From Terricaulis silvestris (GTDB lineage Bacteria; Pseudomonadota; Alphaproteobacteria; Caulobacterales; Aquidulcibacteraceae), in NCBI RefSeq assembly GCF_009792355.1, contig NZ_CP047045.1, forward strand, positions 124,001-188,000: a stretch of 64,000 nucleotides of DNA, in the 5' to 3' direction. Each line of letters begins with the position of its first letter. The first letter of the stretch is position 1. Below the pieces are notes generated by a model, which was not told the origin of the DNA, did no database searches, and was given only the letters and a program-made list of their open reading frames with translations. The translations under genes and the position numbers were made by a program. Below are positions 42,541 to 62,774 of the stretch, piece after piece.

Positions 42541-43173
42541 TCATGGCGTTGCACTCGATCGAGACCGCAACATCATTTGGAAGAGATCTTCACGCGGCAC
42601 AAACGCAAGGCAGGCCGCGGCTTGGTCGGCGCCAACGCCGGAGCGAAGATACCAATCGATACGTTCGCTGATCAACGATTCTTGCAAGCCCCCTGCGTGT
42701 GCGATGCGAAGCCGGGCGCAGTCGGATTCCGCATCGAGCATAGGCGCCGCGATCCAACTTCTTTCAAGACAGGTCTGTGCCGCGCAGGGCGCGTGCGCAA
42801 GATCCATGATGGAAAACGTGGCCAGCCTCGCCCACGCATTGGGCTGTGTGGGCCCGATTTGTGTGGCCCGCATCGCCCACAACATGCTTTCAGCATAAAT
42901 CGCTTCGTCGCCGCCGGCGGCGTTCGCGCGCATGGCATAAATCGCTGAGAGCGCTTCTGCGGCGCTGGCGTTCCAGCGCGTCGGTTGGGCCCAGCTTTTT
43001 TGCAAGCGCGCGGCCGCGCCGGCAAGCATCCGTTCTTGGAGTTGGATTGACGAGGTTCGTTGGGCGACGTGGACGACGTCTAGCGCCGCCTGGGTTTGCG
43101 CTGCACCCTCGAAGACGACGCCGCAGGCCATGATGGCGCTTGCCAAAAGTGCAAGGACGATCGCTTTCAGCAT
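42541..43173 (-). CDS. Exported helical protein, copy A of the polysaccharide locus
   Basis: A 210-residue protein with an N-terminal signal or anchor (LKAIVLALLASAIMACGVVF) and a helical, TPR-like body. Shared with the protein encoded at 52894 are QKSWAQPTRWNASAAEALSA, QPNAWARLA, CLERSW and the tail REDLFQMMLR. It is oriented with the Hsp70-like gene 61 bases upstream and probably cotranscribed. Probable periplasmic scaffold in polysaccharide assembly; this is inferred from context only. Confidence 0.75.
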   Translation of the reverse strand: MLKAIVLALLASAIMACGVVFEGAAQTQAALDVVHVAQRTSSIQLQERMLAGAAARLQKSWAQPTRWNASAAEALSAIYAMRANAAGGDEAIYAESMLWAMRATQIGPTQPNAWARLATFSIMDLAHAPCAAQTCLERSWIAAPMLDAESDCARLRIAHAGGLQESLISERIDWYLRSGVGADQAAACLAFVPREDLFQMMLRSRSSATP

Positions 43174-43234
43174 ACCGAACTATAAGCAAGGCGTTGTCAT
43201 TTAAGGCAAGCCGCAACGCCGATCTTCGACACCC

Positions 43235-44608
43235 TTAAAAATGGGCCTCTGATGGACGAAGCGGCGCAATTGCGCCCCCCAGCGAGACCGCGAGCTGGGG
43301 AAATATTGGCCCCAGCCGGTCAGCGTCGTCGCCGTTCTCGATCCATCCGGGAATGTTGGGATGCACTCTTAGTCGCATTTGGCCGCGAAGCGTTGCGCCT
43401 GGGCTGGACAACATGTTTTGAACAAAGGGGAGCATGGCGCCGCCGCCCGCGGGAATGACGTCAACTCTCTGAGCGCCTGCCGCAAGAGCCTCGCGGAGCA
43501 CGCGGCTAAGGCAGTCTTGATACGCGCCGCGCAACGACGCCTTAAAGTCACGAAAGCCCTTGTCTCGGTAGAGGTCGTTCAAGCGGATCGTCATTTTCTT
43601 ACCTTGGGAAGTCGCGTGGCAGACCCCTTCGCGAAAGAGGGTCTCCTTCAATTGGCGCGCCCGCACTTTCAGGCGCTTCCAGAACGCACGCTTGACGCTT
43701 GCCGGACTTGCCTTGGGGGTTTTGTCAATGAACATCGCCACGAGAACATTGTCGATCTCATCGCATCCGAGCGCGAGTGTTCGGCGCGCTACGAGAATCT
43801 CCTCGAGGTGACGCGCTGCGCCATCACCTGCGCGTCTAAACGAAGCAAAATCGGTCGTGCCCGCGCCCATGTCGAAGACCAGCACAAATTCAGGAATCTC
43901 GGTGGCGAAGGCAAAGTGGCATTCCGAGGCGGCCTGAGCTTCAAAGACGCCCGCTTCCACGCGGCCAAAGCCAGGCTTTGAACGCGCGCGGTCAAGTGAG
44001 GCTCTGGCGACTTCGAAGGCTAGACTATCTGCTTCGACGAGATCACCGCCAAGCTCGGTCACGATCGCTTGCGCCTCATCAAAAAGGCGCGCGACCACAG
44101 CGTTCGCTTTCGTGTCGGGTCCCCAGATCGGATAGGCGTATCGACGTTGGCTTATATGCGCATCGTTCGAAAGCCTTGGCTCGCGTTTAATTGCGCGCTC
44201 GGTGAGCGACAAGACGTAAGCCGTGTAGAGCGTGAGTGCGTCGCGTTGCGTAAAAAGATTTGAAGGGTCGGTTGTTCGCTTAAGCTTGAGCGACAAAGAC
44301 TCTTCAACGTCACGGGCCGCTAGGAACATCTTGAAAGATTGAAGTAGCTCAGAGATGCATTCTTCATGGCTCGCAGCCTCGGTCGCGCGAATCCCAAAGT
44401 GGATGCGGTCGCGATCAAAAAGCATCGCCGATTGCACCAAATAGGGGTTGGGCTCGCCTGTGAAGGAGCCGATCTTTAAAGGATGCAAAAAGGGGCCGCG
44501 GCCGTCTTGGGCGCGGGCGCAAACGCTGACCTTGGACGCCGACGTTCCCAGGTCAACGCAAGTCCGCCAAAGAGCACCTGTTTGCACCTGCTCTGCGACA
44601 TCGCTCAT
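43235..44608 (-). CDS. Hsp70-like ATPase, copy A
   Basis: A 457-residue actin-fold ATPase lacking an Hsp70 substrate-binding domain. Motifs: phosphate-1 CVDLGTSASKVSV (about residues 17-29), phosphate-2 VLVFDMGAGTTDF (about 245), adenosine site VIPAGGGAMLPF (about 392). RRYAYPIWG and RLFDEAQAI are shared with the paralogue at 53639. No signal peptide, so cytoplasmic. It is divergent from the BTLCP gene with 139 bases between. Its role in a polysaccharide locus is unknown; it might act as an assembly chaperone or ATP-driven switch. Confidence 0.8.
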   Translation of the reverse strand: MSDVAEQVQTGALWRTCVDLGTSASKVSVCARAQDGRGPFLHPLKIGSFTGEPNPYLVQSAMLFDRDRIHFGIRATEAASHEECISELLQSFKMFLAARDVEESLSLKLKRTTDPSNLFTQRDALTLYTAYVLSLTERAIKREPRLSNDAHISQRRYAYPIWGPDTKANAVVARLFDEAQAIVTELGGDLVEADSLAFEVARASLDRARSKPGFGRVEAGVFEAQAASECHFAFATEIPEFVLVFDMGAGTTDFASFRRAGDGAARHLEEILVARRTLALGCDEIDNVLVAMFIDKTPKASPASVKRAFWKRLKVRARQLKETLFREGVCHATSQGKKMTIRLNDLYRDKGFRDFKASLRGAYQDCLSRVLREALAAGAQRVDVIPAGGGAMLPFVQNMLSSPGATLRGQMRLRVHPNIPGWIENGDDADRLGPIFPQLAVSLGGAIAPLRPSEAHF

Positions 44609-44747
44609 TGCAGCGAATGCTTCATTGGTTCCTCTGCCACCGCGTTAGGGCATGAGTGGAAATTGTTATCCGTGTTATCTTTACGGCGAATAAAGACTGT
44701 TTGGTTACAAGCAAGCCGTTAGCCCCCAGGGGCGGCGGACTTCGAGT

Positions 44748-45521
44748 TTGTCCAAGGTTTTGTTACTGGCGACGGCGTCCTGCCTGTCGATGCTCGGGTC
44801 GGGCTGCGCCATGCTGCGGCCGAGCGCAGATTTGGGTCCACCGCCGTCGGCAACTAATGTGAGGCTGCTTGCCGGGCCCGCCGTTCCGGCGCCATCGGGA
44901 CTAGTCGCTTTCTGTGCGCGCGAACCCGAAGCCTGCTTGCAGTCCGACGACACATCCCGGCAAGCCACTCCGTCTAGGCTCTCGAATGCGAACCACGAAG
45001 CGCGCGAACACGAGATTCTGACACGGCGGCGGTGGCGACAATTGAACGAGGTTAGCCGCGACGTCAATCACACCATCGCCCCGGTGTCGGATCAAGACCA
45101 GTACGGCGTGCCGGATTATTGGACCGTGCCGGTCTCTGTGCGTGCTGGGTTGGCGGCCAGCGGGGACTGCGAGGATTATGCGCTGGAAAAAAGAGCGCGA
45201 CTGATCGCTTTGGGTTGGTTGCCCCAATCGCTCGTGCTCGCCGTGGTGACGGCGCCAACGATTGGACGCCACGCCGTGCTGGTGGTTCAAACAGATCGCG
45301 GCGATCTTGTACTCGACAATTTGCATGATGAGCCGCGAGAGCTTGCCTCGCTGGGCTATCAATGGCTCTCGCGCCAGAGTGGACCGATCCTTCAATCATG
45401 GGCGAGCGCACGCGTTGAAGCGCCTGAGACTCTGATCTTGCACTCTCAATTAAATGCCGACAGCACGATCGCGCCGGCGTTCGTGACGCCGCCGACCCAG
45501 GCTTGGCGACTTCAGAATTAG
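44748..45521 (+). CDS. BTLCP (LapG-like) cysteine peptidase lipoprotein, copy A
   Basis: 257 residues from a TTG start. A lipoprotein-like signal (LGSGC, Cys20) precedes a bacterial transglutaminase-like cysteine-peptidase domain. The catalytic triad reads Cys141 (SGDCEDYALEKR), His175 (GRHAVLVVQT) and Asp190 (LVLDNL). The DCED segment keeps both the Asp and Glu that bind Ca2+ in LapG. LapG releases a large adhesin from the surface; here the substrate is unknown, and no adhesin or LapD gene is adjacent. The following gene starts 74 bases downstream. Confidence 0.85.
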   Translation: MSKVLLLATASCLSMLGSGCAMLRPSADLGPPPSATNVRLLAGPAVPAPSGLVAFCAREPEACLQSDDTSRQATPSRLSNANHEAREHEILTRRRWRQLNEVSRDVNHTIAPVSDQDQYGVPDYWTVPVSVRAGLAASGDCEDYALEKRARLIALGWLPQSLVLAVVTAPTIGRHAVLVVQTDRGDLVLDNLHDEPRELASLGYQWLSRQSGPILQSWASARVEAPETLILHSQLNADSTIAPAFVTPPTQAWRLQN

Positions 45522-45595
45522 AGGGTCGATTTCCCTGGCCAGGTCCGAGTCGCGGTTGTAAACCTGAGCTCGAACAGCCTATCGGGGGAACGGTT

Positions 45596-46207
45596 ATGCG
45601 GCCTCAAATGCCAAAGTCCCGGCTTGCCCCGGTCTTCCTGGCGGCCGCGGTGTCGCTCGGATCCGTGCTTTTGGTGCAACTCGCGTTGGCTGACGGGATT
45701 GAACGGCGCCGGCCGCCTCCAGAGCGGGAGGCCAGTGTGGTTCCGGCATCGCCCGATGTTCCCTCGCTGCTCGGCGCCAACGAATTGCCGCCGAGCTTGG
45801 AGGGGCCTTGCTTGGATCGCGAGCAAGCTTTGTTGGCGATCCAGACCGCTAGTGCGGGGGTCCCCATGGAAACCGTCAACGCCGCCTTGGCGAATGTTTC
45901 GGGCACAGACCAGACGCCCCCGACGGACCCGGCCGCGGCGGATCTGTCAAATCGGCTCCGCGCCGATCTTGGATATGAGGCGGGCGGCGCTAATTGTGCG
46001 ACCGTCCAGTCCGCGTTGAACGACGCGACGCAATTTGCGCAGATAACGTCTGACGAGCCCACGGGCGCTATCGGCCCGACAGGTGACGTTGGACGCCCAG
46101 GGCCTCTATCGCCGTCTTCGTCGCCTTTGGTTCCGGCGGGCTCGCCCGGCGGCGCCAATGGTTCTGGCTATTGCCATCTGAACGGCCACGGCTGCGGTCG
46201 GGGCTAA
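45596..46207 (+). CDS. Small exported protein with Gly-rich tail, copy A
   Basis: 203 residues from the ATG at 45596 with GGGGGAACGG upstream. The signal peptide is about residues 5-31. The mature part has a Pro-rich start, a helical middle with two cysteines (GPCLDREQALLAIQTAS, NCATVQSALNDA) and a Gly/Pro/Ser-rich end. The end contains AGSPGGANGSGYCHLNGHGC, matched by AGSPGGGGGSGYVND in the paralogue at 58615. It ends four bases into the opposite-strand ligase gene. A secreted or envelope-bound role is likely; function unknown. Confidence 0.7.
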   Translation: MRPQMPKSRLAPVFLAAAVSLGSVLLVQLALADGIERRRPPPEREASVVPASPDVPSLLGANELPPSLEGPCLDREQALLAIQTASAGVPMETVNAALANVSGTDQTPPTDPAAADLSNRLRADLGYEAGGANCATVQSALNDATQFAQITSDEPTGAIGPTGDVGRPGPLSPSSSPLVPAGSPGGANGSGYCHLNGHGCGRG

Positions 46208-47577
46208 AACGATCCGTTCTGTTGGCGGTGCTGCCGTACGGCTGGGTTTGAGAACGCCCCAAGGCAGAAGGCGAAAAGCGCTGCGATCGCTGGGATCTGC
46301 AACGTAAAATCCATGACGCCGTGGACCAAGAACAACAACGACGCCCCGTAGAGGGCCGCGCTCCAGTGCGGGGCAGATTTGTCCATCACGGCGCTTTCGA
46401 GCGCACGCCAAAGCGGCGGCGCGACCATAAGCACAAAGAGCGCCAAGCCGATCACGCCTGTCTCCTCCAGCGCTTGAACGTAAATGTTGTGGGCCGCGCC
46501 CACGATCCTCAAGCTATCCCAATTGTCCGGCGTGATCGCCATGGCGTTCAGGTCGTGAAACGTGTTGAGCCCGTGGCCCAAAAGCGGCCTCGATAAAAAC
46601 GCCTGCCAGTGCGGCGCAAGCAATTCCTGTCGCCCCTCCAACGCCGCACCCACATCGCCAAATCGGCCCAGCACCGGATCGGCGCCCATGGCGATAAACC
46701 AAAGCCCGAGCGCCCCCAACGCAAGCGCAGGCGCCAAGATGAGCGTCCGCCTTGCGCCGCTGGCGCGAAGCGCGAGCAGCCCCACAAATGCGCCAAATCC
46801 GATGCCGGTGGCTGCGAGCCCGCCGCGTGAGGCCGTCAACAACGCGCACGCAACGGCGAGGGCAAACGCAGCCGTAGCCAAGGGTGCGCGAAGCGAAGCC
46901 GCAACCCAATTCAAGGCGCGTGGCATGTGTCGTGGCGCTCTCTCAGGCCCATTCCGAGGACCGGCTTTGCCGATCACGCGCGCACAGGCGAATATCGCCA
47001 AAGCGCCGAACAAGGCGGCGGCGGCGTTTGCCGAGCCAATATGTGCGTCGAGCCTCGCGTCGGCTTGCCCCGCGAAGTACTGGCTAAGGGCATAGAGAGC
47101 GTAGACCACGGTCAACGCGCAGAGCCATGCGCTGACCACGGAGCGTGAGTGTCGCAAGCTCGCGAGCGCGCCCAGCACAAACGCTGTCAACGGCCCCAAA
47201 AAGGCGATCAACCCTTCGATTGTATTGGTCGGTGCAAGCGACATCGACGGACGCAACCACTGAAAGGCTGGGGCGAGCGGGTGGGCGAAACGGGCCGCCA
47301 GATCTGGAGATTGAAGCGGCGCCGCCGAGAGCGCCGCCAAGACGACAAAAGCGGTGGCGGCAGCAGCAGGCACGCGATTTGAGGCCAGAATTTGCCCCAT
47401 GACACTTGAGGGGAGGGTCAAGATTGAGACAAACAGCGTGGCCAACAAAGCGCCAGACAAGAGCGCTGCCGCCGCAGGGGTGTTTGCCCCTTCCACCACC
47501 ATCGCCGCCAGGATGATGACCAAAGTCGCCCCGCAAATCGGGTTTGCGTTGGACGCCAGGCGAACGATGCTGGTCAT
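46204..47577 (-). CDS. O-antigen ligase/polymerase (WaaL/Wzy) family protein, copy A
   Basis: A 457-residue protein with 11-12 membrane helices. The large periplasmic loop before the last helices carries the family signature HGLNTFHDLNAMAITPDNWD and AAHNIYVQALEETGVIGLAL. It would join repeat units to a growing polysaccharide or to a lipid acceptor in the periplasm. The paralogue at 56397 is closely similar in the loop. It faces the phosphatase gene divergently, with 102 bases between. Confidence 0.87.
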   Translation of the reverse strand: MTSIVRLASNANPICGATLVIILAAMVVEGANTPAAAALLSGALLATLFVSILTLPSSVMGQILASNRVPAAAATAFVVLAALSAAPLQSPDLAARFAHPLAPAFQWLRPSMSLAPTNTIEGLIAFLGPLTAFVLGALASLRHSRSVVSAWLCALTVVYALYALSQYFAGQADARLDAHIGSANAAAALFGALAIFACARVIGKAGPRNGPERAPRHMPRALNWVAASLRAPLATAAFALAVACALLTASRGGLAATGIGFGAFVGLLALRASGARRTLILAPALALGALGLWFIAMGADPVLGRFGDVGAALEGRQELLAPHWQAFLSRPLLGHGLNTFHDLNAMAITPDNWDSLRIVGAAHNIYVQALEETGVIGLALFVLMVAPPLWRALESAVMDKSAPHWSAALYGASLLFLVHGVMDFTLQIPAIAALFAFCLGAFSNPAVRQHRQQNGSF

Positions 47578-47679
47578 GAAGGCGTGTTTGACCTCAGGTT
47601 GAATTATAGCGACCGAACCGCGACATTAACGGGTCTAAGGTCTCGCGCCACATAGGACGGCGCAAATGTGGAACCAACC

Positions 47680-48477
47680 ATGACGAGCGGCCCTCGCGGC
47701 AAGGCTAAGCGAAAGAAGGGTCTCGCCTCATTCGCGGAAGCACGCCTCGGGTTTGCGATCGGCGATGTGCATGGTCGCGCCGACCTTCTGGATCAGATGC
47801 TGCTCCGGATCGCACACGACGTCGCTGAGGCAAACAGTCAAAACGCCATCGTCATATTCATGGGCGACTATGTTGACCGGGGCCCCGACAGTGCTGAAGT
47901 CATCGCGCACCTTTTGAGCCAGCAGCCCCCGGGCATCGAGTGGCGCTTTTTGAAAGGCAACCACGAACAGTCGATGCTGAATTTTCTCGACGGGCCAACC
48001 ATGAACCGCGGTTGGCTTGCGCATGGGGGGCTCGAAACGCTGGTCTCCTACGGGGTCTCGCCCTTGCCTTCGATAGGTTCAAGCGCGGAAGCCATTGTTC
48101 AGGCCCGCGATCAATTGAAGCAAAACATGCCGGCGTCGCACTTGGCGTTCTTGCAGTCGCTTGAGCGCTTCGTGATTGTTGGCGATTACCTGTTCGTGCA
48201 TGCGGGCGTTGACACAAGCCTGCCGATCGAGCGTCAGCGCGACGACGACTTATTTTGGGTGCGCGGAAAGTTCTTGAACGACACCCGCGCCTTTAGCCAC
48301 GTTGTCGTGCACGGCCATACGCCAGTGACGACGCCCTATCGAGATCATCGCCGCATTTGCGTTGATACCGGCGCCTACGCCACGGGTCGGCTGTGTGCAG
48401 CGCGGTTTTTCGGCGATTCAGTGACGTTTTTGATCGAAGAACGCGTCAAGATGGCGTCTCCAAGCGGCGGCGATTAG
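47680..48477 (+). CDS. PPP-family metallophosphatase
   Basis: 265 residues from the ATG at 47680; a GTG at 47668 is in frame. All PPP-type motifs are present: GDVHGR (about residue 28), GDYVDRG (about 65), KGNHE (about 94), a FVHAGVD segment (about 176) and VVHGHTPV (about 211). It resembles bacterial PrpA/diadenosine-tetraphosphatase-like serine/threonine/tyrosine phosphatases. It lies directly before the export genes and has no counterpart in copy B. It could dephosphorylate the Tyr-rich tail of the Wzc-like protein, but this is inference. Confidence 0.88.
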   Translation: MTSGPRGKAKRKKGLASFAEARLGFAIGDVHGRADLLDQMLLRIAHDVAEANSQNAIVIFMGDYVDRGPDSAEVIAHLLSQQPPGIEWRFLKGNHEQSMLNFLDGPTMNRGWLAHGGLETLVSYGVSPLPSIGSSAEAIVQARDQLKQNMPASHLAFLQSLERFVIVGDYLFVHAGVDTSLPIERQRDDDLFWVRGKFLNDTRAFSHVVVHGHTPVTTPYRDHRRICVDTGAYATGRLCAARFFGDSVTFLIEERVKMASPSGGD

Positions 48478-48545
48478 AACAACGCTGTTGAGTAGTGGCG
48501 CGGGCCACGTGTAATCTCCAAGCTTGACGATGGAGGAGGAAGCCG

Positions 48546-49118
48546 ATGTGGGCCAATTCGGTGCGGCGGTTGTTCGCCTGCGCGTTGGTTCTGCTCTGCG
48601 CCGCTTGCGCTTCAGACGCAGGACCGGTCAGGCAGACAGCGACAGGGGCAACGCCGGTTGCTGAATATCGGCTTGGCCCCGGCGACAAAGTCCGTGTCAA
48701 CGTCTTTGGCGAGGCCGACCTTTCGGGCGAATTCGTCGTCAGTCCGACCGGAAACGTTTCTTATCCGCTTGTTGGCGAGGTGCCGGCGTCGGGTCAAACG
48801 GTTCCCGAGTTTACCTTGACACTGACCGAGGTGCTTCGAAACGGCTATGTTCGCGAACCTCTGATCTCGGTCGAGGTCGTCAATTATCGCCCCTATTATA
48901 TCATGGGCGAGGTGGGTTCGCCGGGAACCTTTCCCTTTACTGGCGCGCTCACGGTGATGAACGCCGTCGCTACGGCGGGAGGCTTTACGTATCGAGCCGA
49001 CACACGGCGGGTGTACATCAAGCACGCGGACGCCGAGAACGAAGAGCTCGTGCCTCTGACCAGCACCACCTTGGTGCAGCCGGGCGACACCATCCGTATT
49101 CCGGAACGCAGGTTCTAA
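48546..49118 (+). CDS. Wza-like polysaccharide export lipoprotein, copy A
   Basis: A 190-residue lipoprotein (LCAAC, Cys21) with a good ribosome site (GGAGGAGG). The Poly_export domain starts at EYRLGPGDKVRVNVFGEADL (about residue 39), and an SLBB-like domain follows (NYRPYYIMGEVGSPGTFPF, VMNAVATAGGFTYRAD). It lacks the C-terminal helix of E. coli Wza, as is usual for this short class, so a separate barrel is needed for the outer membrane; the next gene may supply it. Confidence 0.9.
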   Translation: MWANSVRRLFACALVLLCAACASDAGPVRQTATGATPVAEYRLGPGDKVRVNVFGEADLSGEFVVSPTGNVSYPLVGEVPASGQTVPEFTLTLTEVLRNGYVREPLISVEVVNYRPYYIMGEVGSPGTFPFTGALTVMNAVATAGGFTYRADTRRVYIKHADAENEELVPLTSTTLVQPGDTIRIPERRF

Positions 49119-49283
49119 CCGCCTCAACGCTCTGCTGACCCGGTCTTCCAAGACGACGCGGTCAACCCCAGCGTTAATTCTCGCGATAATAATGGCACAC
49201 GCACGCGGAACTTGGCTGCCTCGGGTTGTTGCTTAAGCGCATCTTTTGGTACCCAATACCAAAGGTTAACGGCGGGGGCCAAA

Positions 49284-50567
49284 ATGCCTAAATGTGGTGT
49301 TGGGGCGGTGGCAAGCGTACTTGCTGCGATCTTCATGATTGGCGACGTGCGAGCGCAACCTCAGGTAGAGGATGGCGGAACGGACTATTTTCGACGTGAT
49401 GGAAATCCGAGCGTTCGCGACCGGCAAGTGGAGCGATCGGCCGAACTCGGATGGCGCCTCGGCGGATTTTGGTTGAAACCGCAAGTGTCGCTGGATCTCG
49501 GCTATAGCGACAACGTCGCCGCCAGCGAAACCGATCCAGAAGCCAGCACGGTCTACCAGGCCGATGTCCGCATTGATCTTGAATCCAATTGGGGTCGACA
49601 CGAACTCCACGGCTCGCTCGACATTCCGACAGTGAACTATACCTCCGACTTTTCGGCAACGGACGTCATTGCCGAACTCGGCGGCCGTCTCGATATCGAT
49701 CGCGGCCTTAGCGTCAATGGCGGCGCGAGCTACGGGCGACGGACAGAACCGTACTCGTTTCTCCCGAGCGGAGTCGAACTTAGCGACCCGCTCGAGTACG
49801 ACACGACCGGCGCATATGTGGGGTTTGCACAGACCTTCAATCGAGTTCGCCTGGCCGGTCGCGCGAGCATGCTTGAAAGAGATTTTCACGACGGCGAATT
49901 GACCAACGGGTTGCCATTTGAGGTCGACGACCGCGATGTGACGCAAGTCAGCTATGGCTTGCGCGCCGATTACGCGATGACGGCGCGTACGTCCCTGTTT
50001 GTGTCGGCCGAGGCAAACACACGCGAGCACGACCTCGTTCCGCCGGCGGTGCTCGTGAACAAAGATAGCGAGGGCTACGAGGTTCTCGTCGGCGCCAATT
50101 TTGACCTGACGCACCTGATGAGCGGGGAACTGGGCGTTGGCTATTACGCACAATCGTTTGACGAACCAGGCGTCGAAGAACAAACAGGTTTCGCTGCGCG
50201 TGGTCAGATCGAGTGGTATCCCGACGAATTAGTGACCGTTACCGTGGGCGTCGAACGCGCCGTAAGCGAGGCGTTTGCAGTGGGCGCGAGAAGCCTTGTC
50301 AACACCGACGCCAACATCGGCATCGATTACGAATACCGCCGCAATATCATTTTGAGCGTCGCATCGGGGTACAGCTTCGAGGAGTACGGCGAGATTGACC
50401 GCCAAGACAGGCGATGGACCGTCTACGCCGGCGGCGAATACGAATTCAATCGCTTCACATCGTTTAACGCGCGCATCGGCCATGGCGAGCAAGAGTCTGA
50501 AGGTGCCGACTTCGGTCGGAGCTACGAAGAGAACGTTGCCTCCATTGGCGTCAGGTTGCGGCGCTAG
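49284..50567 (+). CDS. Outer-membrane beta-barrel (BBP2 type), copy A
   Basis: 427 residues from the ATG at 49284; upstream in-frame residues lack a signal. The signal peptide ends DVRAQ. The mature protein is a series of amphipathic strands with acidic turns (LDLGYSDNVAASETDPEAST, GLRADYAMTARTSLFVSAEA, IDYEYRRNIILSVASGYSFE) and ends GVRLRR. It matches the putative beta-barrel porin 2 family found in exopolysaccharide loci. It lies between Wza- and Wzc-like genes and is likely the outer-membrane part of the exporter. Confidence 0.83.
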   Translation: MPKCGVGAVASVLAAIFMIGDVRAQPQVEDGGTDYFRRDGNPSVRDRQVERSAELGWRLGGFWLKPQVSLDLGYSDNVAASETDPEASTVYQADVRIDLESNWGRHELHGSLDIPTVNYTSDFSATDVIAELGGRLDIDRGLSVNGGASYGRRTEPYSFLPSGVELSDPLEYDTTGAYVGFAQTFNRVRLAGRASMLERDFHDGELTNGLPFEVDDRDVTQVSYGLRADYAMTARTSLFVSAEANTREHDLVPPAVLVNKDSEGYEVLVGANFDLTHLMSGELGVGYYAQSFDEPGVEEQTGFAARGQIEWYPDELVTVTVGVERAVSEAFAVGARSLVNTDANIGIDYEYRRNIILSVASGYSFEEYGEIDRQDRRWTVYAGGEYEFNRFTSFNARIGHGEQESEGADFGRSYEENVASIGVRLRR

Positions 50568-50587
50568 GAACGGTTGATAGAGGCGAC

Positions 50588-52825: not shown

Positions 52826-52893
52826 GCGGCTGTGTTGGCCGATGCGAGAGCCCAGTTCGTATCGGTGATGTCGCGGGTCGGCGGCGGCTGCAA

Positions 52894-53517
52894 TCAGTCA
52901 GAGCTAAGCGTGCGCATCAGTGTCTGGAAGAGTTCGTCTGGCGGCAGGAACGACAGGCAGCGCGCCGCTTCGCTCCGCGATGCGCCGCCGTCCAGATAAG
53001 CCTCGATCCGCGCATCATTTGGCGTCAGCAGATTTCGTCGTTGCGCCAGTTGCAGCCTGGCGCATGCCGGCTCTGGCTCGACCATCAAGGCCACGCTCCA
53101 AGACCGCTCAAGGCATAGGTCGATGTCGCAGACGGAATTGCCGTAACCGCGTTCGGCCAAAGCCGCGAGTCGGATCCAGGCGTTTGGCTGTACCGGGGCC
53201 AGGCGGACGGTGTGGGTCGCCCAGCGTGCGCTTTGCTCAAATAAACTCGCGTCGCCGAGCGTTTCGGCCTTCAGAAAAATAACCGCCGAAAGCGCTTCGG
53301 CGGCGCCGGCGTGCCATCGCGTCGGTAGCGCCCAACTTTGCTTGAGACCGAGCTCGGCGCGTTCCAAGAGGCGCTGACGCACAACGGGAGAGTCGGTCCT
53401 GCTTGCGCTGACCGTAAGCGCAGTGGCGGATTCTGCGGCGAAGCTCGCCTCAAAAACAAAAGCGGCCAGCGCCAAAAGCGGCGCCAGGAGCGCCAAACAA
53501 ATGAGCCTCAATCCCAT
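52894..53517 (-). CDS. Exported helical protein, copy B
   Basis: 207 residues with a signal or anchor (GLRLICLALLAPLLALAAF). Counterpart of the protein encoded at 42541: LKQSWALPTRWHAGAAEALS, QPNAWIRLA, CLERSW and PPDELFQTLMR are shared in the same order. It follows the Hsp70-like gene of copy B on the same strand. Probable periplasmic scaffold; no catalytic motif seen. Confidence 0.75.
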   Translation of the reverse strand: MGLRLICLALLAPLLALAAFVFEASFAAESATALTVSASRTDSPVVRQRLLERAELGLKQSWALPTRWHAGAAEALSAVIFLKAETLGDASLFEQSARWATHTVRLAPVQPNAWIRLAALAERGYGNSVCDIDLCLERSWSVALMVEPEPACARLQLAQRRNLLTPNDARIEAYLDGGASRSEAARCLSFLPPDELFQTLMRTLSSD

Positions 53518-53638
53518 GGCGGGTAAAGCTCGCCGTCCGCGTCAGGTTCGTCAAGCCGTGGCCCGATGGCGTGGGTCGGGTTCAGCACCGCTGGGCGGCG
53601 CGCTTCCGCTCGATCGCGAATACGACGCGAAGGCGTTT

Positions 53639-55475: not shown

Positions 55476-56387
55476 TTGCGTATTCTTGCATTGTGCTTGA
55501 TGGCGGCGGCTTGCGCCAGTCCAGGCGTTCAGCCCCTAACCCGGGTTGGGCAGCCCGCGCGCTTGCTTGCGGGCGCACAGATGCCGGCGCCCCTGGGGGC
55601 CTTAGATTATTGCGCGCGGCTGCCCGCTGATTGCGGCCAGATCGATCAGGACGATCTGCTTACGCGCAATGGCGTTGTCGGCGCGCCGTCTCTTCCGCCT
55701 TCCTCGAACCGGCGCGACGCACTCCAAGCGTCAGCGTTCCGCGCCATGATGGCGGCTCGCTTTGCGCCCCCTCAAAGTCATCTGGGTTCGACGCGAATGG
55801 AAATGTCGCTGACGGACGTGCGCTGGGAGGAGCTGCGTCAGGTTAATCGCACGATCAACCGCAGCATTCGCCCCGCCACCGATCTCACCACTTATGGCGT
55901 CGAGGAGTACTGGAATAGACCCCTGGTCGCGAGCGATCGGGGCGCTAGAGGCGATTGCGACGACTACGCTTTAGAGAAGCGAGCGCGCTTGATCGCACTG
56001 GGTTGGACGCCGGACATGGTCGCCTTAGCAATCGCGATGGCGCCGCGCGTGGGCTTGCACGCCGTCTTGATTGTGCAAACCAACCACGGAGACTTTGTGT
56101 TGGATAATCTCGCCGACGAGCCGCGAGCGCTGTCGCAGCTCCGTTATGGCTGGATTTCGCGCCAGTCCGGCTCTGGTTTGATAACATGGGCCGCCGCTTA
56201 TCGGTCTGATGTGACAACCCAGCGGCCACGGGCGGTCCAATTGGTTGACGCAAGTCCAGAGGATGCATTTCACCGAATGATGGGTGAGCGATTGAGCGCG
56301 CGCGGGGCGACGGCGTTTGCACCGGGGCAAACGCCGGTGTCTGAGCCCGCAGCGATCGCTGCTGACATCGCCCGCGGGCGACGCTAG
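55476..56387 (+). CDS. BTLCP (LapG-like) cysteine peptidase lipoprotein, copy B
   Basis: 303 residues from a TTG start with GTTGGGA upstream. Lipobox MAAAC (Cys13). The triad is Cys161 (RGDCDDYALEKRARLIALGW), His195 (GLHAVLIVQT) and Asp210 (FVLDNL), with exactly the same spacing as in copy A (34 and 15 residues). The LapG Ca2+-ligand position that is Glu in copy A is Asp here. A 40-residue C-terminal extension is absent from copy A. Substrate unknown. Confidence 0.85.
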   Translation: MRILALCLMAAACASPGVQPLTRVGQPARLLAGAQMPAPLGALDYCARLPADCGQIDQDDLLTRNGVVGAPSLPPSSNRRDALQASAFRAMMAARFAPPQSHLGSTRMEMSLTDVRWEELRQVNRTINRSIRPATDLTTYGVEEYWNRPLVASDRGARGDCDDYALEKRARLIALGWTPDMVALAIAMAPRVGLHAVLIVQTNHGDFVLDNLADEPRALSQLRYGWISRQSGSGLITWAAAYRSDVTTQRPRAVQLVDASPEDAFHRMMGERLSARGATAFAPGQTPVSEPAAIAADIARGRR

Positions 56388-56396
56388 GGCCCAACC

Positions 56397-57764
56397 TTAA
56401 ACGGAGTGGCCGACGCGCCGCTGCGCGCGACCAACAGCTGCGCCCACCAGAAAAGCAAACAACGCTGCAAGGGCTGGCACCTGTAAGCCAAAGTCGACCA
56501 GACCATGCAAGAGCACCAGCGCCGACGTGGCCAAGGCGATGGCTGCCCATTCCAAGCCAGAACCACCGCCGGCGATACGTGTGAAGGCGCGCGACAATGG
56601 CGTGGCTAACATGAGCGCAAAAAGGGCAAAGCCGATTAGGCCGGTTTCCTCTAACACCTGGACATAAATATTATGCGCGGACCCAGCGATCCGTAGCGAA
56701 GACCAATTCTCTGGCGTGGCCGCGAGCGCGTTGATTTCGTGATACGTGTTGAGCCCGTGGCCGATAAGCGGACGCTCTAGAAATGCCTGCCAATGCGCCT
56801 TGGCCAACATCTCGCGTCCCTCGAAATCCTCCGAGGCCAACGCGAAGCGTTCGACCGTACGCTCACCTCCGCGAACGAACAGCACGACGAACAAGATCAC
56901 CAATGCGAGGAGCGGAGCGACGAGCGCGCTGCTGCGCGCGTAGGTTTGCTTTAGCCTTTGGCTCGCAAACGCAATGACGAAGAGGATAAAGGCCACTCCG
57001 GTCGCGATCAGTCCGCCGCGCGATGCTGTCAGCAGCAGGCAAGTGGTTGCAAGCAAGACAGCGGCCAGTGAGAGCGGCGTGCGCACTAAAAATTCCGCCC
57101 ACGACCACGAGGCGGGCAGGCCATGGCGCTGATCTGCTTGGCCGAGGCGCCCGCGTGCGCCGCGGACGATCAGTCCGGCGCCTACCAGCGTCAACACGCC
57201 AAACAGCGTCGCCGCCGCGTTGGCCGAACTTATGCCGACATCAAGTCGGCCTCCCGAATGTCCATCATTCGAAAAGAATCCGTACAAGGCGATAAGGGCG
57301 TAGAGGATTGTGAGCGCGACGACCCAGCGTCCTACCCAGTCGCGAGCGTTGGGATCGGGCGCCACCAACGCGCCCAACAGGAAAGCCGCGGCGGGCCCCA
57401 ACAATGCCACGGCGCCTTCAAGCGTGCGAAAGGGCGACAACGAAAGCGGCGCGTTGGCGACGGGGGCCCAGTGCGGAGAGCTCTGCAAACCGAGCGGAAG
57501 GCCCGGCGCGGTCATTGCCATCGCCCAGGCCAAAAAGACCAACAGAGCAAGTATCGAAAGCCTATTTGCGCTCAACACACTGGCGAGATCGCGCCGCGGA
57601 GCGCCCGCGACCCCAATCATCAAAGCTACCAAGAGCACAGCCGCCATGAGGCTGGCGCGCACGGCGCTGTTGGCGCCTTCGGCGAGAAGCGCGGTGAAAA
57701 GGATGACGAGCACGCCAAGCGCGCCGACATTGATCTCTTGCAGGCGGCGAATGAGCGCGTCCAT
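56397..57764 (-). CDS. O-antigen ligase/polymerase (WaaL/Wzy) family protein, copy B
   Basis: About 455 residues from the ATG at 57764, chosen because it aligns with the start of copy A; longer frames would run into the divergent Wza-like gene. 11-12 membrane helices. The signature loop HGLNTYHEINALAATPENWS and SAHNIYVQVLEETGLIGFAL is nearly that of copy A. It links or polymerises glycan units in the periplasm. It converges on the BTLCP gene (10 bases). Confidence 0.87.
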   Translation of the reverse strand: MDALIRRLQEINVGALGVLVILFTALLAEGANSAVRASLMAAVLLVALMIGVAGAPRRDLASVLSANRLSILALLVFLAWAMAMTAPGLPLGLQSSPHWAPVANAPLSLSPFRTLEGAVALLGPAAAFLLGALVAPDPNARDWVGRWVVALTILYALIALYGFFSNDGHSGGRLDVGISSANAAATLFGVLTLVGAGLIVRGARGRLGQADQRHGLPASWSWAEFLVRTPLSLAAVLLATTCLLLTASRGGLIATGVAFILFVIAFASQRLKQTYARSSALVAPLLALVILFVVLFVRGGERTVERFALASEDFEGREMLAKAHWQAFLERPLIGHGLNTYHEINALAATPENWSSLRIAGSAHNIYVQVLEETGLIGFALFALMLATPLSRAFTRIAGGGSGLEWAAIALATSALVLLHGLVDFGLQVPALAALFAFLVGAAVGRAQRRVGHSV

Positions 57765-57902
57765 GGAATGGATATCCCCCAGCGCCACACTATCCATCTG
57801 GCGGCGCTTTCGTCGAGACGCGCACCCGAGGCTGTGTGGTTGCATCACTTGGCGAACCGGCGTGCTCACTGCTAAACTCGCCAAGTGAGAGGGGATGGGT
57901 TT

Positions 57903-58487
57903 ATGGGTTGGCTAAAGGATTTGCGCCGATCTTTGATCGGATTGGCGATGGTGGCGTTGTGCGCGGCGTGCGGATCGTCGAGCGGCGGCGTGGACCCGAG
58001 CACCGCTATTTCGCTTCAACAGCCGAGCCTCGCAGAGTATCGGTTGGGGCCAAGCGACCGGTTGCGCATCAGCGTCTTCGGCGAGCCCGATCTCACAGGC
58101 GAGTTTGTGGTCTCGGCTGGTGGGATGGTGTCATACCCACTGATCGGAGACCATCCAGCCACGGGCAAGACGGTCGCGGAATTCAGCGAAAGTCTACGCA
58201 CGGCTCTCACCCGCTATGTGTTGCAGCCAAACATCAGCGTCGAGGTGATGAACTACAGGCCGTTCTTCATCCTGGGCGAAGTCCGAACGCCAGGGACCTA
58301 TCCTTATTCCGCCGGGCTGACGGTCATGAGCGCTGTCGCCACGGCCGGGGGGTTTGGCTACCGAGCCGACACCTCGCGGGTGTTCATCAAGCATCCGGAC
58401 GAGAGCATCGAGCGGACGTATAGGCTCACCAGCACCACGCCGGTCTTACCCGGCGACACCGTCCGTATTCGCCAGCGGCGTTTCTAG
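57903..58487 (+). CDS. Wza-like polysaccharide export lipoprotein, copy B
   Basis: 194 residues from the ATG at 57903; a GTG at 57885 is in frame but would precede the AGAGGGGATGG ribosome site. Lipobox LCAAC (Cys23). Poly_export domain from EYRLGPSDRLRISVFGEPDL and SLBB-like part NYRPFFILGEVRTPGTYPY, VMSAVATAGGFGYRAD. It is closely similar to copy A along its whole length, the best-conserved pair in the locus. Confidence 0.9.
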   Translation: MGWLKDLRRSLIGLAMVALCAACGSSSGGVDPSTAISLQQPSLAEYRLGPSDRLRISVFGEPDLTGEFVVSAGGMVSYPLIGDHPATGKTVAEFSESLRTALTRYVLQPNISVEVMNYRPFFILGEVRTPGTYPYSAGLTVMSAVATAGGFGYRADTSRVFIKHPDESIERTYRLTSTTPVLPGDTVRIRQRRF

Positions 58488-58614
58488 CGGTGTGTAACTT
58501 CGGGTTGGACGGGCGCTTGTCCACGAATGTTAGCGCTCAGGTCGATTAATTACTCGACTGTTTCAACCTGCGCGCTTAATTCTGGGGGCAAGAGCAAATT
58601 CTGGAGGGGCTTCC

Positions 58615-59106
58615 ATGTTAGCGCGCGCCATTTTCGCGGCCTTCGCGGTGTTCAGTTTGGGCGTAGCACCGAACGCTGGCGCTCAGACCGGCGAGGCACA
58701 AGACCAAGCGGCTGCTGTTACAGGCTTGGCCCGGACCGTCTTGGACGAAATTACAACAACGCCGTCGGGCGACAAAGACGCCGTCCTGGAGGCGATCAAT
58801 CGAGCCACGCGCGGCGTGGACTTGGCCGTTATCACGGAAGCGGTTTGCCAGTTACGCGATCGGCGTGAACTGCCGCAGATTGTAGGCGCTGACCCGGGCG
58901 GCCAAGCGCGGGCGCGATTGACGCTGGGCCGGCCAGAAGTGAGCGAAGCGTTGGGCGAGACTTGCGAGATCGCACGCTTGGCGCTTGCGTCTTCCTTTGG
59001 CGCGACTGGAGGCTTGGGAAGCAATGGCCGGGGCCGGGCCTTTGGCCTTGCTACCGCAGCGGGCTCGCCAGGTGGCGGTGGCGGCAGCGGCTACGTCAAC
59101 GATTAA
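58615..59106 (+). CDS. Small exported protein with Gly-rich tail, copy B
   Basis: A 163-residue protein with a strong ribosome site (GGAGGGG) and a signal peptide ending NAGAQ. A helical middle contains two cysteines (AVCQLRD, GETCEIAR). The end is Gly-rich: GATGGLGSNGRGRAFG and AGSPGGGGGSGYVND. Only this tail is clearly shared with the protein encoded at 45596. It sits between Wza-like and barrel genes. Function unknown. Confidence 0.72.
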   Translation: MLARAIFAAFAVFSLGVAPNAGAQTGEAQDQAAAVTGLARTVLDEITTTPSGDKDAVLEAINRATRGVDLAVITEAVCQLRDRRELPQIVGADPGGQARARLTLGRPEVSEALGETCEIARLALASSFGATGGLGSNGRGRAFGLATAAGSPGGGGGSGYVND

Positions 59107-59193
59107 ATTTGTGCGGCGCGCGCCGACGCAAGCGTGCGTCGGCGACGGTGCGGGGTTGCACCGGCGAAGCCTGCGCGGCGGCTAAGGTGGGGC

Positions 59194-60441
59194 ATGAAAA
59201 AAGTCGAGATCAATTTGCCAGTGATGGCGGCGGCGCTTGGTTGGAGCTTCAGCGCTGGCGCTCAAGACGATAACGTCAGCGTGCGCGGGCGCCCAAAGCC
59301 TGAGTATGACGCCTCCGGCATCAGCGTCGGCACCTTCAAGCTTTATCCTGAAATGACGCTGAGCGCAGAGTACGACGACAACATCTTCGCAACGCAGACC
59401 GATCCCCAGGAAGACCTCGTCTTCAATGTCTCGCCGAGCCTCACTTTGGCGTCGCAATGGAGTGTTCACGAGCTCAACCTGGCGCTGACAGCGCACTCGC
59501 GTTCCTATAACGAGTTTAGTCAAAACGACACGACCGACTACGGAATCGCCGCCAACGGCCGACTTGATGTGTTGCGTGACCTCCGCGTGCAGGGCGGGGC
59601 GAGCTACGGCGAGGCGACAGAGCCGCTGTCGCGTTCTCCAACGTCCTTGCCGCTCGCAGAGCCGATCAAATACACAAACACCTCAGCCAATCTTGAGTTG
59701 GTCAAGGAATTCAGCACGGTGCGCGTCTCGACGGGAGCGAGATACTCGGCCGCCGATTACGAAGATGGCGTGCTGTTTGATTTGTCGCCGGTTGACCAGG
59801 ATGACCGCGACCGCACCGTCTTGGGGGCGACGTTGCGTGTCGATGTCGCGGTCAGTCCCGCCACTTCGCTTTTTGCCTCCGTGTCGGGCAACCAACGCGA
59901 ATACGATCGCGAACCGCCGGATGTGCTCGTGAACCGGAATTCTGAGGGTTATGAAGCGCTGGTAGGCGCCAGTTTCGAGGTGACGAGCGCCGTCAGCGGC
60001 GAGATCGGTGTTGGGTATTTGAACCAGACTTATGAGGATCCCGCCGTAGGCGAGACCTCCGGCCTCGCGGTTCGCGCCGACCTGCAATGGAATCCCGATG
60101 ACCTCGTCACGGTGAGCTTGAGCGCCGCGCGCGAAGTCGCCGACGCCGGCGCTGAGGGTGCGGCGAGCTATGTCGCCAACAATATAAATGTGGGCCTGGA
60201 TTACGAGTGGCGGCGCAACGTGGTGCTTAGCGTTAATGCCGGTTACAGCGTCGATGACTATAACGGCGTCGACCGCGAAGACACGCGTTGGGATGGCCGC
60301 GTGAGGGCCGAATATCTGGCGAACAGCGGCGTCGCGTTCTACGTCGAGGCAGGCCATTACGAGCAACGCTCTGAGGGACTGCAGTTGGGAAGAGAATATG
60401 ATGTCGATCGCGCTACGGTCGGGATAAGGCTGCGCCGCTAG
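59194..60441 (+). CDS. Outer-membrane beta-barrel (BBP2 type), copy B
   Basis: 415 residues from the ATG at 59194 with AAGGTGGGG upstream. The signal peptide ends SAGAQ. Strand-rich barrel like copy A, with common landmarks LSAEYDDNIFATQTDPQEDL, LVNRNSEGYEALVGASFEV, SGEIGVGYLNQTYEDP, LDYEWRRNVVLSVNAGYS and the terminal VGIRLRR. Likely the outer-membrane partner of the Wza-like protein. Confidence 0.83.
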   Translation: MKKVEINLPVMAAALGWSFSAGAQDDNVSVRGRPKPEYDASGISVGTFKLYPEMTLSAEYDDNIFATQTDPQEDLVFNVSPSLTLASQWSVHELNLALTAHSRSYNEFSQNDTTDYGIAANGRLDVLRDLRVQGGASYGEATEPLSRSPTSLPLAEPIKYTNTSANLELVKEFSTVRVSTGARYSAADYEDGVLFDLSPVDQDDRDRTVLGATLRVDVAVSPATSLFASVSGNQREYDREPPDVLVNRNSEGYEALVGASFEVTSAVSGEIGVGYLNQTYEDPAVGETSGLAVRADLQWNPDDLVTVSLSAAREVADAGAEGAASYVANNINVGLDYEWRRNVVLSVNAGYSVDDYNGVDREDTRWDGRVRAEYLANSGVAFYVEAGHYEQRSEGLQLGREYDVDRATVGIRLRR

Positions 60442-60470
60442 CGCGGCGAAGTCTCATTGGGCCTGCAATC

Positions 60471-62714
60471 ATGAACATGATCTCGATCACAAGGGGCGCA
60501 GAAGACTTTCGCGAGCAATCGGTCGGACCAGAGGAAGATCAAGGCGCGCAAATCAAGCGTGTCTACGGCGTGTTTATGCGGCGCTGGCGCGTCATGCTGG
60601 CGGTTGCGGTCGTGGTTTATGCAGCCGTCGTCGCAAACACGATGCTCAGCCCCAAAATTTATACAGCCACAGCATTGATCATGGTGAATCCGGCCGGTCA
60701 GCAGGTGCTCTCGCAAGATCAAACCATCAACACAGGGCCCTCCTACGAGGATGCGGCGGTCGAGTCGGAAATCGAAGTGCTGACTTCGATTGCGTTGAGC
60801 GCCCGGCTGGTTGAGGCGATGCAACTGGAACGGGATCCCGAATGGAATGGCGCGCTGCGTCCTCCAGGACCAGTGGCGTCGGCGCTGGCGCCCATCAGGG
60901 CGCTGATTTCAAATGACGGCGCAGACGTTGAGCCGCGGGTTCGCGACATCGAGGCAGAGCGCGAAGGCATAGCAGCAGCGTTCAACGGCGCCCTGTCGGT
61001 AAAACGAAGGGGCTTCAGCTACGCCATCGAGCTTTCGCTCGACTCGCGCAACCCGCGCCGCGCCGCCGAGCTGCTCAACCGATTAACCGAAGTCTATCTG
61101 CAAATGCAGACTGAAGCCCGATTTGAGGCCTCGCAGCGCGCCAACGATTGGTTGTCACACCGGCTCGAAGAGTTGCGCCAAGAGGTGCAAGCCAAGGAGC
61201 AAGCGGCCGAGACCTTCAGGAGCCAAAACGGATTGTCGTTAGCCGCTGGCGGCGGCGCTAACCAAACGCCGCAATCGGCGGAAGTGCAGACCATGATGGT
61301 CTCCGCGCGCGCGGACCTGGCTGAAAAAGATGCGCGTTTGCGGCAAGTACGGCGTTTGCTAGAAACCGGCGGCTCGGCGGAATCGCTTGCGACGACACTA
61401 AATTCGCCGGTCGTGGGAGAACTTAGATCCCGCGAGACGGATTTGGCGCAGCGCGTCGCCGAGTTGCGGCAGCGTTATTCCGCCGAGCACCCCACCATAC
61501 TTGCCGCCGAAAGCGAACTCGAAAATGTGCGCCAGCGGATCCAACTCGAAGTTAGCCGCATCACCGCGAGCCTGCAAAACGAAGTGGAAATTGCGCGCGC
61601 GCGTTTGAATACATTGCAGGGGAGTTTCGGCGGCGTCGCCGGCTCTAACGATGACGACAATGGCGCTGTCATCCACTACCGGGAATTGCTGCGTGACGCT
61701 ACGGCGGCGCGGTCCGTACATGAAAGCTTCCTACAACGCTTCCACGAGGTCGCCGATCAGGGCGATTTGCCAATCGCCACCTCGCGCATCCTGTCCGCTG
61801 CGCGGACACCGGGCGCGCCGAGCAAGCCCAACCTGTCACGTGCCATGCTGGTGGCCTTAGTGTTTGCAGGCATGTGCGGCGCCGGTATTGGCTTTCTGAT
61901 CGAGATGCTCGACGCGTCGATTGCCAGCGCCGAGGACGCAGAACGCAAACTCAATGTCGCAGCGATCGCTTCGGTGCCGGTGTTAAGACCACGCGATCTC
62001 TCCGGAATTGCTCCACATCGCCGCAAGCCTGCCGATTATTTGGTGGACAAACCCGCCTCGGGGTTCGCCGAAGCGTTCCGCGTGCTGAAGACCTCGCTCA
62101 TGCATGCGCGCGTGGATCGTCGGCTGAAAGTGTTGGCCGTCACGTCTGCGGTGCCAGCCGAGGGCAAAACCACGGTTTCGCTTTGCCTTGCGCGGATCGC
62201 CGCGATGTCGGGCCAACGTGTCATCTTGGTCGATTGCGACTTGCGCCGGCACTCCTTGAGCGAAGCGGTCGGCGTCAGTCCAAGCCTTGGTCTGCTCGAC
62301 GTGCTGTCAGGCGGGAGCGATTGGCGGGGCGCCGCGGTGCAAGACCCCGAGAGTGCAGCGCAATTATTGGCGGTGTTGCCCTCCAGGTTTAATCCCCGAG
62401 ACGTGTTCGACTCGGTGGCGATGGAGCAGTTGCTGGACGATTTGCGCGCCCATTTCGATCTTGTCGTTCTCGATTGCCCGCCAGTGTTGGCGGTTGCGGA
62501 GACGCGCACCGTGGCCAAACTCGCGGATCTGACCTTGATGGTGGTGCGCAGCGACAAGACGCCGACAACGGCGGCGCGAATGGCGATCCGGGAAATCTCG
62601 CAGGCAGGGGCCGACATTGGTGGCGTGGCGCTGAATTGGGTGAACCCGCGGCGCCGCGGCGGCTATGGCGATACGCTTTATTACAGTTACGCGAGCAGCT
62701 ATTATCACAGCTGA
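60471..62714 (+). CDS. Wzc-like chain-length protein with tyrosine autokinase domain, copy B
   Basis: A 747-residue protein, same domain order as copy A: N-terminal membrane helix (about 42-62), Wzz domain, periplasmic coiled coil (about 210-420), second membrane helix (about 463-482) and BY-kinase domain. Walker A is SAVPAEGKTTVS (about 559), Walker A' LVDCDLRRHS (about 586), Walker B VVLDCPPVL (about 664). The tail TLYYSYASSYYHS is Tyr-rich. It lies 29 bases after the barrel gene. Controls chain length and export. Confidence 0.9.
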   Translation: MNMISITRGAEDFREQSVGPEEDQGAQIKRVYGVFMRRWRVMLAVAVVVYAAVVANTMLSPKIYTATALIMVNPAGQQVLSQDQTINTGPSYEDAAVESEIEVLTSIALSARLVEAMQLERDPEWNGALRPPGPVASALAPIRALISNDGADVEPRVRDIEAEREGIAAAFNGALSVKRRGFSYAIELSLDSRNPRRAAELLNRLTEVYLQMQTEARFEASQRANDWLSHRLEELRQEVQAKEQAAETFRSQNGLSLAAGGGANQTPQSAEVQTMMVSARADLAEKDARLRQVRRLLETGGSAESLATTLNSPVVGELRSRETDLAQRVAELRQRYSAEHPTILAAESELENVRQRIQLEVSRITASLQNEVEIARARLNTLQGSFGGVAGSNDDDNGAVIHYRELLRDATAARSVHESFLQRFHEVADQGDLPIATSRILSAARTPGAPSKPNLSRAMLVALVFAGMCGAGIGFLIEMLDASIASAEDAERKLNVAAIASVPVLRPRDLSGIAPHRRKPADYLVDKPASGFAEAFRVLKTSLMHARVDRRLKVLAVTSAVPAEGKTTVSLCLARIAAMSGQRVILVDCDLRRHSLSEAVGVSPSLGLLDVLSGGSDWRGAAVQDPESAAQLLAVLPSRFNPRDVFDSVAMEQLLDDLRAHFDLVVLDCPPVLAVAETRTVAKLADLTLMVVRSDKTPTTAARMAIREISQAGADIGGVALNWVNPRRRGGYGDTLYYSYASSYYHS

Positions 62715-62774
62715 CGGGTAACGTTTGGTTTGTGAGGGCGAGGCCGTTTATTGCGGCTCCGTTGGGTCTTCGCG

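Follow-up and report, generated by a model that had tools for sequence, protein, structure and literature searches.

Analysis of a 64,000-nucleotide stretch of Terricaulis silvestris DNA (contig NZ_CP047045.1, positions 124,001 to 188,000; here called the window) revealed two adjacent gene blocks, A and B, which share the genes of a surface polysaccharide export machine. The two blocks are probably anciently diverged versions of one Caulobacterales capsule or exopolysaccharide export locus with a core of the hvyA type. They are not a recent local duplication, and the split between them is of old date.

A preliminary description of this DNA had listed eight kinds of genes that recur in both blocks; open reading frames, BLASTP, Pfam and, for the Gly-rich protein, a profile comparison confirmed all eight and their positions. 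On the minus strand, each block carries hel, encoding an exported or anchored helical protein (A, 42541 to 43173; B, 52894 to 53517), hsp, encoding an ATPase that has only the nucleotide-binding domain (NBD) of Hsp70 (A, 43235 to 44608; B, 53639 to 55009), and wzy, encoding an O-antigen polymerase/ligase (A, 46204 to 47577; B, 56397 to 57884, with the true start probably downstream). The plus strand carries btl, encoding a BTLCP periplasmic cysteine peptidase with the C/H/D motifs kept (A, 44748 to 45521; B, 55476 to 56387), gly, encoding an exported Gly-rich protein (A, 45593 to 46207, start codon uncertain; B, 58615 to 59106), wza, encoding a short OPX lipoprotein (A, 48546 to 49118; B, 57885 to 58487), bar, encoding an outer-membrane beta-barrel (A, 49212 to 50567, with the true start probably downstream; B, 59134 to 60441), and wzc, encoding a co-polymerase with a BY-kinase domain (A, 50588 to 52825; B, 60471 to 62714). 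In block A, a gene for a calcineurin-like metallophosphatase, Wzb-like by its position in the locus, is located upstream of wza (phos, 47668 to 48477, plus strand).

Pfam analysis identified HSP70 (E 6.7e-5 in A and 3.4e-7 in B), Peptidase_C93 (1e-41 and 1.1e-36), Wzy_C (1.4e-14 and 2.2e-23), Poly_export plus SLBB, BBP2_2 (7e-86 and 1e-100) and Wzz/AAA_31 in both blocks and Metallophos in block A only (4.8e-15); hel and gly gave no Pfam match in either block. The copies are far apart in their residues, as had been described: BLASTP identity between A and B was 40% for hel (E 1e-42), 37% for the Hsp70-like ATPase (1e-72), 45% for the BTLCP peptidase (3e-53), 43% for Wzy (2e-96), 57% for Wza (7e-74), 43% for the barrel (1e-104) and 51% for Wzc (E 0). 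The Gly-rich pair gave E 8.1 with composition correction and 8e-10 without it. The corrected value alone would make the two proteins unrelated, a reading overturned by the comparison of profiles built with their relatives, in which they were homologous (HHalign probability 95%, P 1.7e-8). At the DNA level, the likeness between A and B is limited to stretches of 30 to 466 columns with 64 to 87% identity, which indicates that the blocks are old.

Loci with one block alone were searched for in 30 genomes of the genus, including that of T. silvestris; several of these genomes are incomplete, part of the neighborhoods were read, and the counts rest on bar and hel searches together with those neighborhoods. 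Such single-copy loci, which the preliminary description had proposed to look for, were found: four genomes, G003, G006, G008 and G011, have only a B-type locus, and one, G010, has only an A-type locus (the wzy of G006 was missed by the gene finder used). As far as searched, T. silvestris is the only one of the 30 with A and B together. In the gene trees, block A grouped with the G010 locus for wzc (support 100/100), bar (100/99), hsp (94/93), hel (95/94), wza (86/92) and wzy (94/96). Block B grouped with the four B-type loci for wzc (100/100), bar (95/94), wza (99/95) and, less surely, wzy (91/93); its hsp fell with the B-type loci together with S1, one of two solitary Hsp70-like genes of the T. 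silvestris genome. A clade of the two T. silvestris copies was rejected by the approximately unbiased (AU) test in six of the six families tested, with P values for the forced grouping of 2e-8 (wzc), 4e-19 (bar), 6e-7 (hsp), 0.002 (wzy), 0.013 (wza) and 0.040 (hel).

When order-wide homologues were included, the Wzc proteins of A, B and two further loci of the same genome, C and D, formed one clade of the family (100/99). Within the trees, A and B were sister clades for wzc (100/100) and bar (100/100), exclusive of the order-wide homologues, C and D, which makes the split between them old. Of the old block duplication that had been proposed, the homology of the blocks, their age and the nearly complete export set in each are supported. 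A duplication inside the lineage of T. silvestris is not, in view of the AU tests and of the homologues of each block that stand alone in other species. In the rpoB tree, T. silvestris stood beside G001 and G011 (99/96), and G010 was placed elsewhere. This tree comprised 26 of the 30 genomes (G004 and G006 gave no match, and the G018 and G026 sequences were too short); for G008 and G012, the second piece was omitted.

Two of the described differences between the blocks need correction. The phosphatase is confined to copy A within the window, as described, but should not be counted as an addition to A, since it precedes wza in all four single B-type loci; block B therefore probably lost its phosphatase. 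No phosphatase was found in the single A-type locus of G010. The Gly-rich gene, described as having moved, does occupy different positions in the two blocks, but these positions are traits of the lineages: the order is btl-gly-wzy in A and G010 and wza-gly-bar in B, G011 and G008, where the orthologues of B gly are 48 to 50% identical. No Gly-rich gene was called in G003 or G006.

The surroundings of the loci were compared as well. The left-edge gene fl1 (41244 to 41666, plus strand), which encodes a 140-amino-acid protein with no Pfam match, recurs near A- and B-type loci in tblastn searches. It is located at the hel/hsp side of the G006, G008 and G010 loci and beside a displaced hel in G011, both genes being there about 37 kb past the wzc end of the locus; fl1 was not found in the stretch of G003 that was read. 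On the other side, wzc is followed by a sugar transferase gene and a NusG-like gene in the four B-type loci and by a sugar transferase gene in G010. The T. silvestris NusG-like gene, 54 to 61% identical to those of the B-type loci, is positioned 5.7 kb beyond the window, past an intervening gene group. The occurrence of A alone, B alone or both in one kind of frame suggests an old tandem duplication followed by loss. Comparison of the left-flank DNA with eight genomes revealed lone genes at scattered places and no conserved flank.

The physical tandem, with its nearly identical gene order and strand pattern, would at first sight be expected from a recent, lineage-specific duplication in T. silvestris; given the AU results and the standalone homologues, this explanation has a negligible probability. 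A secondary juxtaposition deserves more weight, in which one block was inherited and the other was gained by horizontal transfer and placed alongside through recombination at homologous flanks. The distribution is patchy, with A-type loci in 2 and B-type loci in 5 of the 30 genomes and both, as far as searched, only in T. silvestris, and the sister species G011 showed B and no A. The surroundings vary between species, and block A is more diverged from its G010 counterpart (Wzc 53%, Hsp70-like ATPase 45% identity) than are the C-locus genes of the same two genomes (63% and 58%). Against this stand the exclusive common ancestor of A and B for wzc and bar, the recurrence of the flank genes fl1 and NusG-like, and the loci read, in which wzc and bar of the A and B types showed no donor from beyond the genus. 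Because the distribution is patchy and the surroundings have changed, we regard transfer as a possible, if somewhat doubtful, course of events.

Several observations weigh against the interpretation of A and B as old versions of one hvyA-type locus. The low counts of A- and B-type loci mean that an old tandem with loss needs many losses. The Hsp70-like proteins of A and B are not sisters, since S1 and the second solitary gene, S2, are placed between them; the btl tree lacks resolution, as does the placement of B in the hel tree. Surroundings differ even in the sister species G011, and in G010, whose locus lacks the phosphatase, hsp and not hel faces fl1. The likeness to the hvyA locus is one of gene content and order, taken from the published description and from genomes of the order. 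Among the genes of either block, no flippase, initiating transferase or glycosyltransferase was recognized; glycosyltransferase genes are located 14.8 to 18.5 kb beyond the window end. The shorter Wzy proteins of the order, described below with hel, are a further point of this kind.

The core gene content is that of the published Caulobacter hvyA capsule export locus: metallophosphatase, Wza, barrel, Wzc, Wzy and BTLCP peptidase. Relatives of the G011 phosphatase were found in 63 of 120 genomes of the order (E 1e-50), and neighborhoods were fetched from 32 of the 63, all outside the genus and 30 from other families. These contained wza in 21 cases, wzc in 19, wzy in 16, the barrel gene in 15 and btl in 10; the gene finder recognized the phosphatase itself in 29 of them, and in three cases the stretch stops early at a contig end. 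Three neighborhoods from one genus of another family showed the order wza-phos-btl-(one or two genes)-wzy-wzc-bar. This agrees with PMC4241560, where Wza, the phosphatase, HvyA, the polymerase and Wzc are numbered in this order from CCNA_00168 down to 00163, and we infer that CCNA_00162 is the barrel. According to the same source, deletion of the wzc, polymerase/ligase or phosphatase gene leads to a heavy phenotype tied to capsule loss (sugar analysis is given there for the wzc deletion), and HvyA is a BTLCP peptidase that restrains capsulation and requires its catalytic residues. As in the Caulobacter crescentus hvyA locus (CCNA_00162 to 00168), both blocks hold the Wzc kinase, Wza, polymerase/ligase and BTLCP peptidase genes together; the metallophosphatase is present in A and missing from B. 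Unlike that locus, the blocks add the Hsp70 NBD-only ATPase, a separate hel and the Gly-rich protein, two versions adjoin, and the Wzy proteins are shorter than those of the three loci of matching order.

The preliminary description had called the Hsp70-like ATPase, the BTLCP peptidase and the helical protein nonstandard members of such a set. For the peptidase this does not apply, since HvyA, located in the Caulobacter capsule locus, is a direct precedent, and probably not for hel either, which looks like a domain of Wzy (see below); for the Hsp70-like ATPase it does. The A btl product belongs to the BTLCP family by its Pfam match and C/H/D motifs and is not LapG, whose NCBIfam equivalog cutoff it does not reach (37 versus 320 bits). 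Both Wzc proteins carry the Wzz plus AAA_31 domains and Tyr-rich tail of BY-kinase Wzc proteins, with 5 (A) and 6 (B) Tyr in the final 20 residues.

The two Wza proteins, with 190 (A) and 200 (B) amino acids and PF02563 plus SLBB, are within the limit of ≤280 amino acids for short OPX proteins, and Wza_C gave no match in either at E 0.1. The barrel gene is within five genes of wza, being the next gene in A and the next but one in B. These features fit the composite OPX/beta-barrel translocon, judged by protein size, domains and gene position. The pairing of OPX proteins with barrels is described in PMC9601211, and the short OPX with a barrel gene close by resembles EpsY/EpsX, WzaX/S/B with their barrels, and VpsN/VpsM (PMC9601211 and PMC9603273); unlike in those systems, the window barrel is of the BBP2_2/EpsL-like family. 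The A wza and A bar products also match the NCBIfam models EpsE and EpsL of XrtB/PEP-CTERM-type exopolysaccharide sets, but far under the curated cutoffs (89 versus 263 bits and 39 versus 275 bits).

The helical protein appears to be a detached C-terminal domain of a longer Wzy. The AlphaFold2 (AF2) model of B hel was all-helical, with a predicted local distance difference test score (pLDDT) of 90.8. A profile search against the PDB gave a best E of only 0.66, and none of the Foldseek matches reached E 0.001, those to helical-repeat and TPR structures being weak. The hel profile matched the C-terminal part of all six long Wzy proteins (620 to 657 amino acids, from two other families) with independent E values of 8e-7 to 4e-3, and HHalign aligned hel with the long-Wzy C terminus at P 4.3e-6 and a probability of 87%. 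The 10 shorter Wzy proteins of the order (313 to 489 amino acids, one cut by the stretch end) had no hel in the fetched stretch, and hel was found in none of the 32 order neighborhoods. A Wzy C-terminal helical domain that is apparently encoded separately would be useful for asking what this domain does.

Of the three members called nonstandard, the Hsp70-like ATPase is the only one left unexplained after the hvyA and Wzy comparisons. In an alignment of 16 Hsp70-like rows, the columns D.GT..SK, D.G.GT.D and GGG, the phosphate and adenosine motifs of Hsp70, were invariant. The profile matched the PDB at E 3e-20, and the AF2 model of B hsp (pLDDT 90.8, confident to about residue 447, with the final residues disordered) had an Hsp70-type chain as its best Foldseek match (E 6e-14). 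No substrate-binding domain was found; the proteins comprise 456 to 457 amino acids, and the Pfam match lies inside the NBD only. Members occur in 39 of 60 genomes and 6 of 14 genera of the family (E 1e-15). At E 1e-25, the only hit among 385 genomes of the class was T. silvestris, with at most four candidates per genome scored and thus four of its five copies among the matches. At family strength, the ATPase is thus seen in one bacterial family, where it is linked to the A, B and C lineages of the locus. Distant relatives with 27 to 30% identity are present in other bacterial groups, and no Hsp70-like gene was found in the 32 order neighborhoods.

The Hsp70-like tree comprised 82 rows, 69 of them in an inner clade, with 34 locus-linked and 35 solitary; rows under 380 amino acids and loci missed by the gene caller or BLAST threshold were omitted. 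Linkage was judged from flanking sequence of 10 kb or less, in several cases cut off by the end of a contig, and was labeled by hand for the T. silvestris rows (A, B and C linked; S1 and S2 solitary) and for two solitary G010 rows. Linked rows were 22 of 23 of the C type, 5 of 5 of the B type, 4 of 6 of the A group, two deep branches, L164 and L161 (the latter by a weak Wzc match of 94 bits), and one a few kilobases from the G010 locus. Solitary rows were 27 of the S2 type, four of the S1 type and four others; the A-like L107 and L108 are solitary. L106, L123, L124, L135 and L160 are the loci of G010, G003, G011, G008 and G006, respectively, and are therefore not additional A- or B-type cases. 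The state changed at least six times on the tree. Linkage of the Hsp70-like gene to the locus thus recurs and has been kept, and solitary genes branch off from it.

A role of this ATPase in regulation or assembly may be suspected. Myxococcus xanthus StkA and SglK are Hsp70-family regulators of exopolysaccharide, and their direct target is called unidentified in PMC4319316. Like these, the window proteins are Hsp70-family members with a presumed tie to exopolysaccharide output, a likeness drawn from the description of StkA and SglK; by contrast, stkA lies with stkB and stkC, not with export machine genes, and the window Hsp70s are NBD-only and inside the export locus. A search mainly of the open literature found no publication that describes a relative of Hsp70 within a polysaccharide export locus of Alphaproteobacteria. 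The gene could also be a passenger that has no part in export and is kept for other functions, in line with the 35 solitary rows of the inner clade, among them the widespread S2 type, and with the placement of StkA in a signaling pathway and not in the machine (PMC4319316). The linkage found for the C and B types, for most of the A group and for the deep branches, together with the at least six changes of state and with a linkage that outlasts changes in the surroundings, makes a mere passenger rather unlikely.

From the homologies, domains, trees and distribution, we infer each biochemical step and the direction of the losses for the old locus with an hvyA-type core as follows. Wzy would polymerize lipid-linked repeat units in the periplasm, aided by hel, and Wzc would fix the chain length and cycle between phosphorylated and unphosphorylated states, with the metallophosphatase standing in for Wzb. 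The polymer would leave through a composite pore of the short OPX lipoprotein and the BBP2_2 barrel, and the BTLCP peptidase may act as a periplasmic brake, like HvyA. The Hsp70 NBD-only ATPase would have been gained in the family and would probably be cytoplasmic, serving machine assembly or on/off control. The hel-to-wzc unit would have split once before the genus radiated, in a frame that has fl1 to its left and, for B-type loci, the sugar transferase and NusG-like genes to its right; other species would then have kept A, B or neither, and T. silvestris both. Block B, without its own phosphatase, probably borrows that of A or C. Tentatively, and with rather low expectation for the whole proposal, the NBD-only Hsp70 might be a dedicated part of Wzy-type export in one family. 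It would then act in the cytoplasm as a clamp driven by ATP, putting together or switching the ring of Wzc kinases; in the C set, a GrpE-like exchange factor would be its partner, and A and B would be two such machines in one cell, with private Hsp70s and shared phosphatases. If the ATPase is a working part, it would be an ATP-driven addition to the well-described Wzy-type export machine and would allow a simple genetic test of control over a surface polysaccharide by an Hsp70 relative. The A/B pair represents diverged machines in one cell and could be used to study partner specificity, namely of Wza with the barrel and of Wzc with the phosphatase.

The T. silvestris genome, a single contig of 3.86 Mb, holds five Hsp70-like genes, five Wzz matches (one below the family cutoff) and, for BBP2_2 barrels, three strong matches and a weak fourth one. 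The third set, C, at about 934 to 943 kb, contains genes for a barrel, the small protein C_hyp, an Hsp70-like ATPase, a separate kinase, a sugar transferase, Wzc, Wza and a phosphatase; no wzy, hel or btl was found there. The D-type wzc is positioned near 921 kb, and no further block gene was recognized in the 20 kb read around it. A more distant Wza-like gene and the Wzz protein below the cutoff are located at 1.56 Mb. The end of C_hyp (L016:3687-4124, 145 amino acids, upstream of C_hsp) resembles the GrpE beta-domain. As a GrpE, this protein is suggestive only: Pfam GrpE matched none of five members, the PDB gave no match, and HHalign with the GrpE proteins of 10 genus genomes gave P 0.005 and a probability of 7% without trimming, while its global mode yielded no match. 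With trimmed columns, P was 6e-4 and the probability 28%, and the score was 29.8, against 20.5 for the best of 150 column shuffles and 11.4 for the reversed profile. The solitary S2 (L018:8958-10313), with 26 other rows in its clade, has a neighbor that looks sensor-kinase-like by eye. At G029:C6:421315-422635, G014:C83:4643-7186 and G015:C5:1343330-1344497, Hsp70-like or barrel homologues were read as neighboring pieces, perhaps assembly errors or decay.

Right of block B (window 62751 to 63998 and L020:196-4877), genes encode an NTP_transf_5 nucleotidyltransferase, an asparagine synthase with GATase, a PRMT-like methyltransferase and PqqD; together they resemble the content of peptide clusters like those of ribosomally synthesized and posttranslationally modified peptides. 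A dispersed repeat of about 80 nucleotides occurs at window positions 26142, 26574, 35026 and 38893, with 63 to 75% identity to the first copy. It gave no Rfam match, and two folded copies were no clearly better than shuffles. In G023, the same repeat is present in dozens of partial copies of roughly 69 to 85% identity, many of them between 3.63 and 3.78 Mb.

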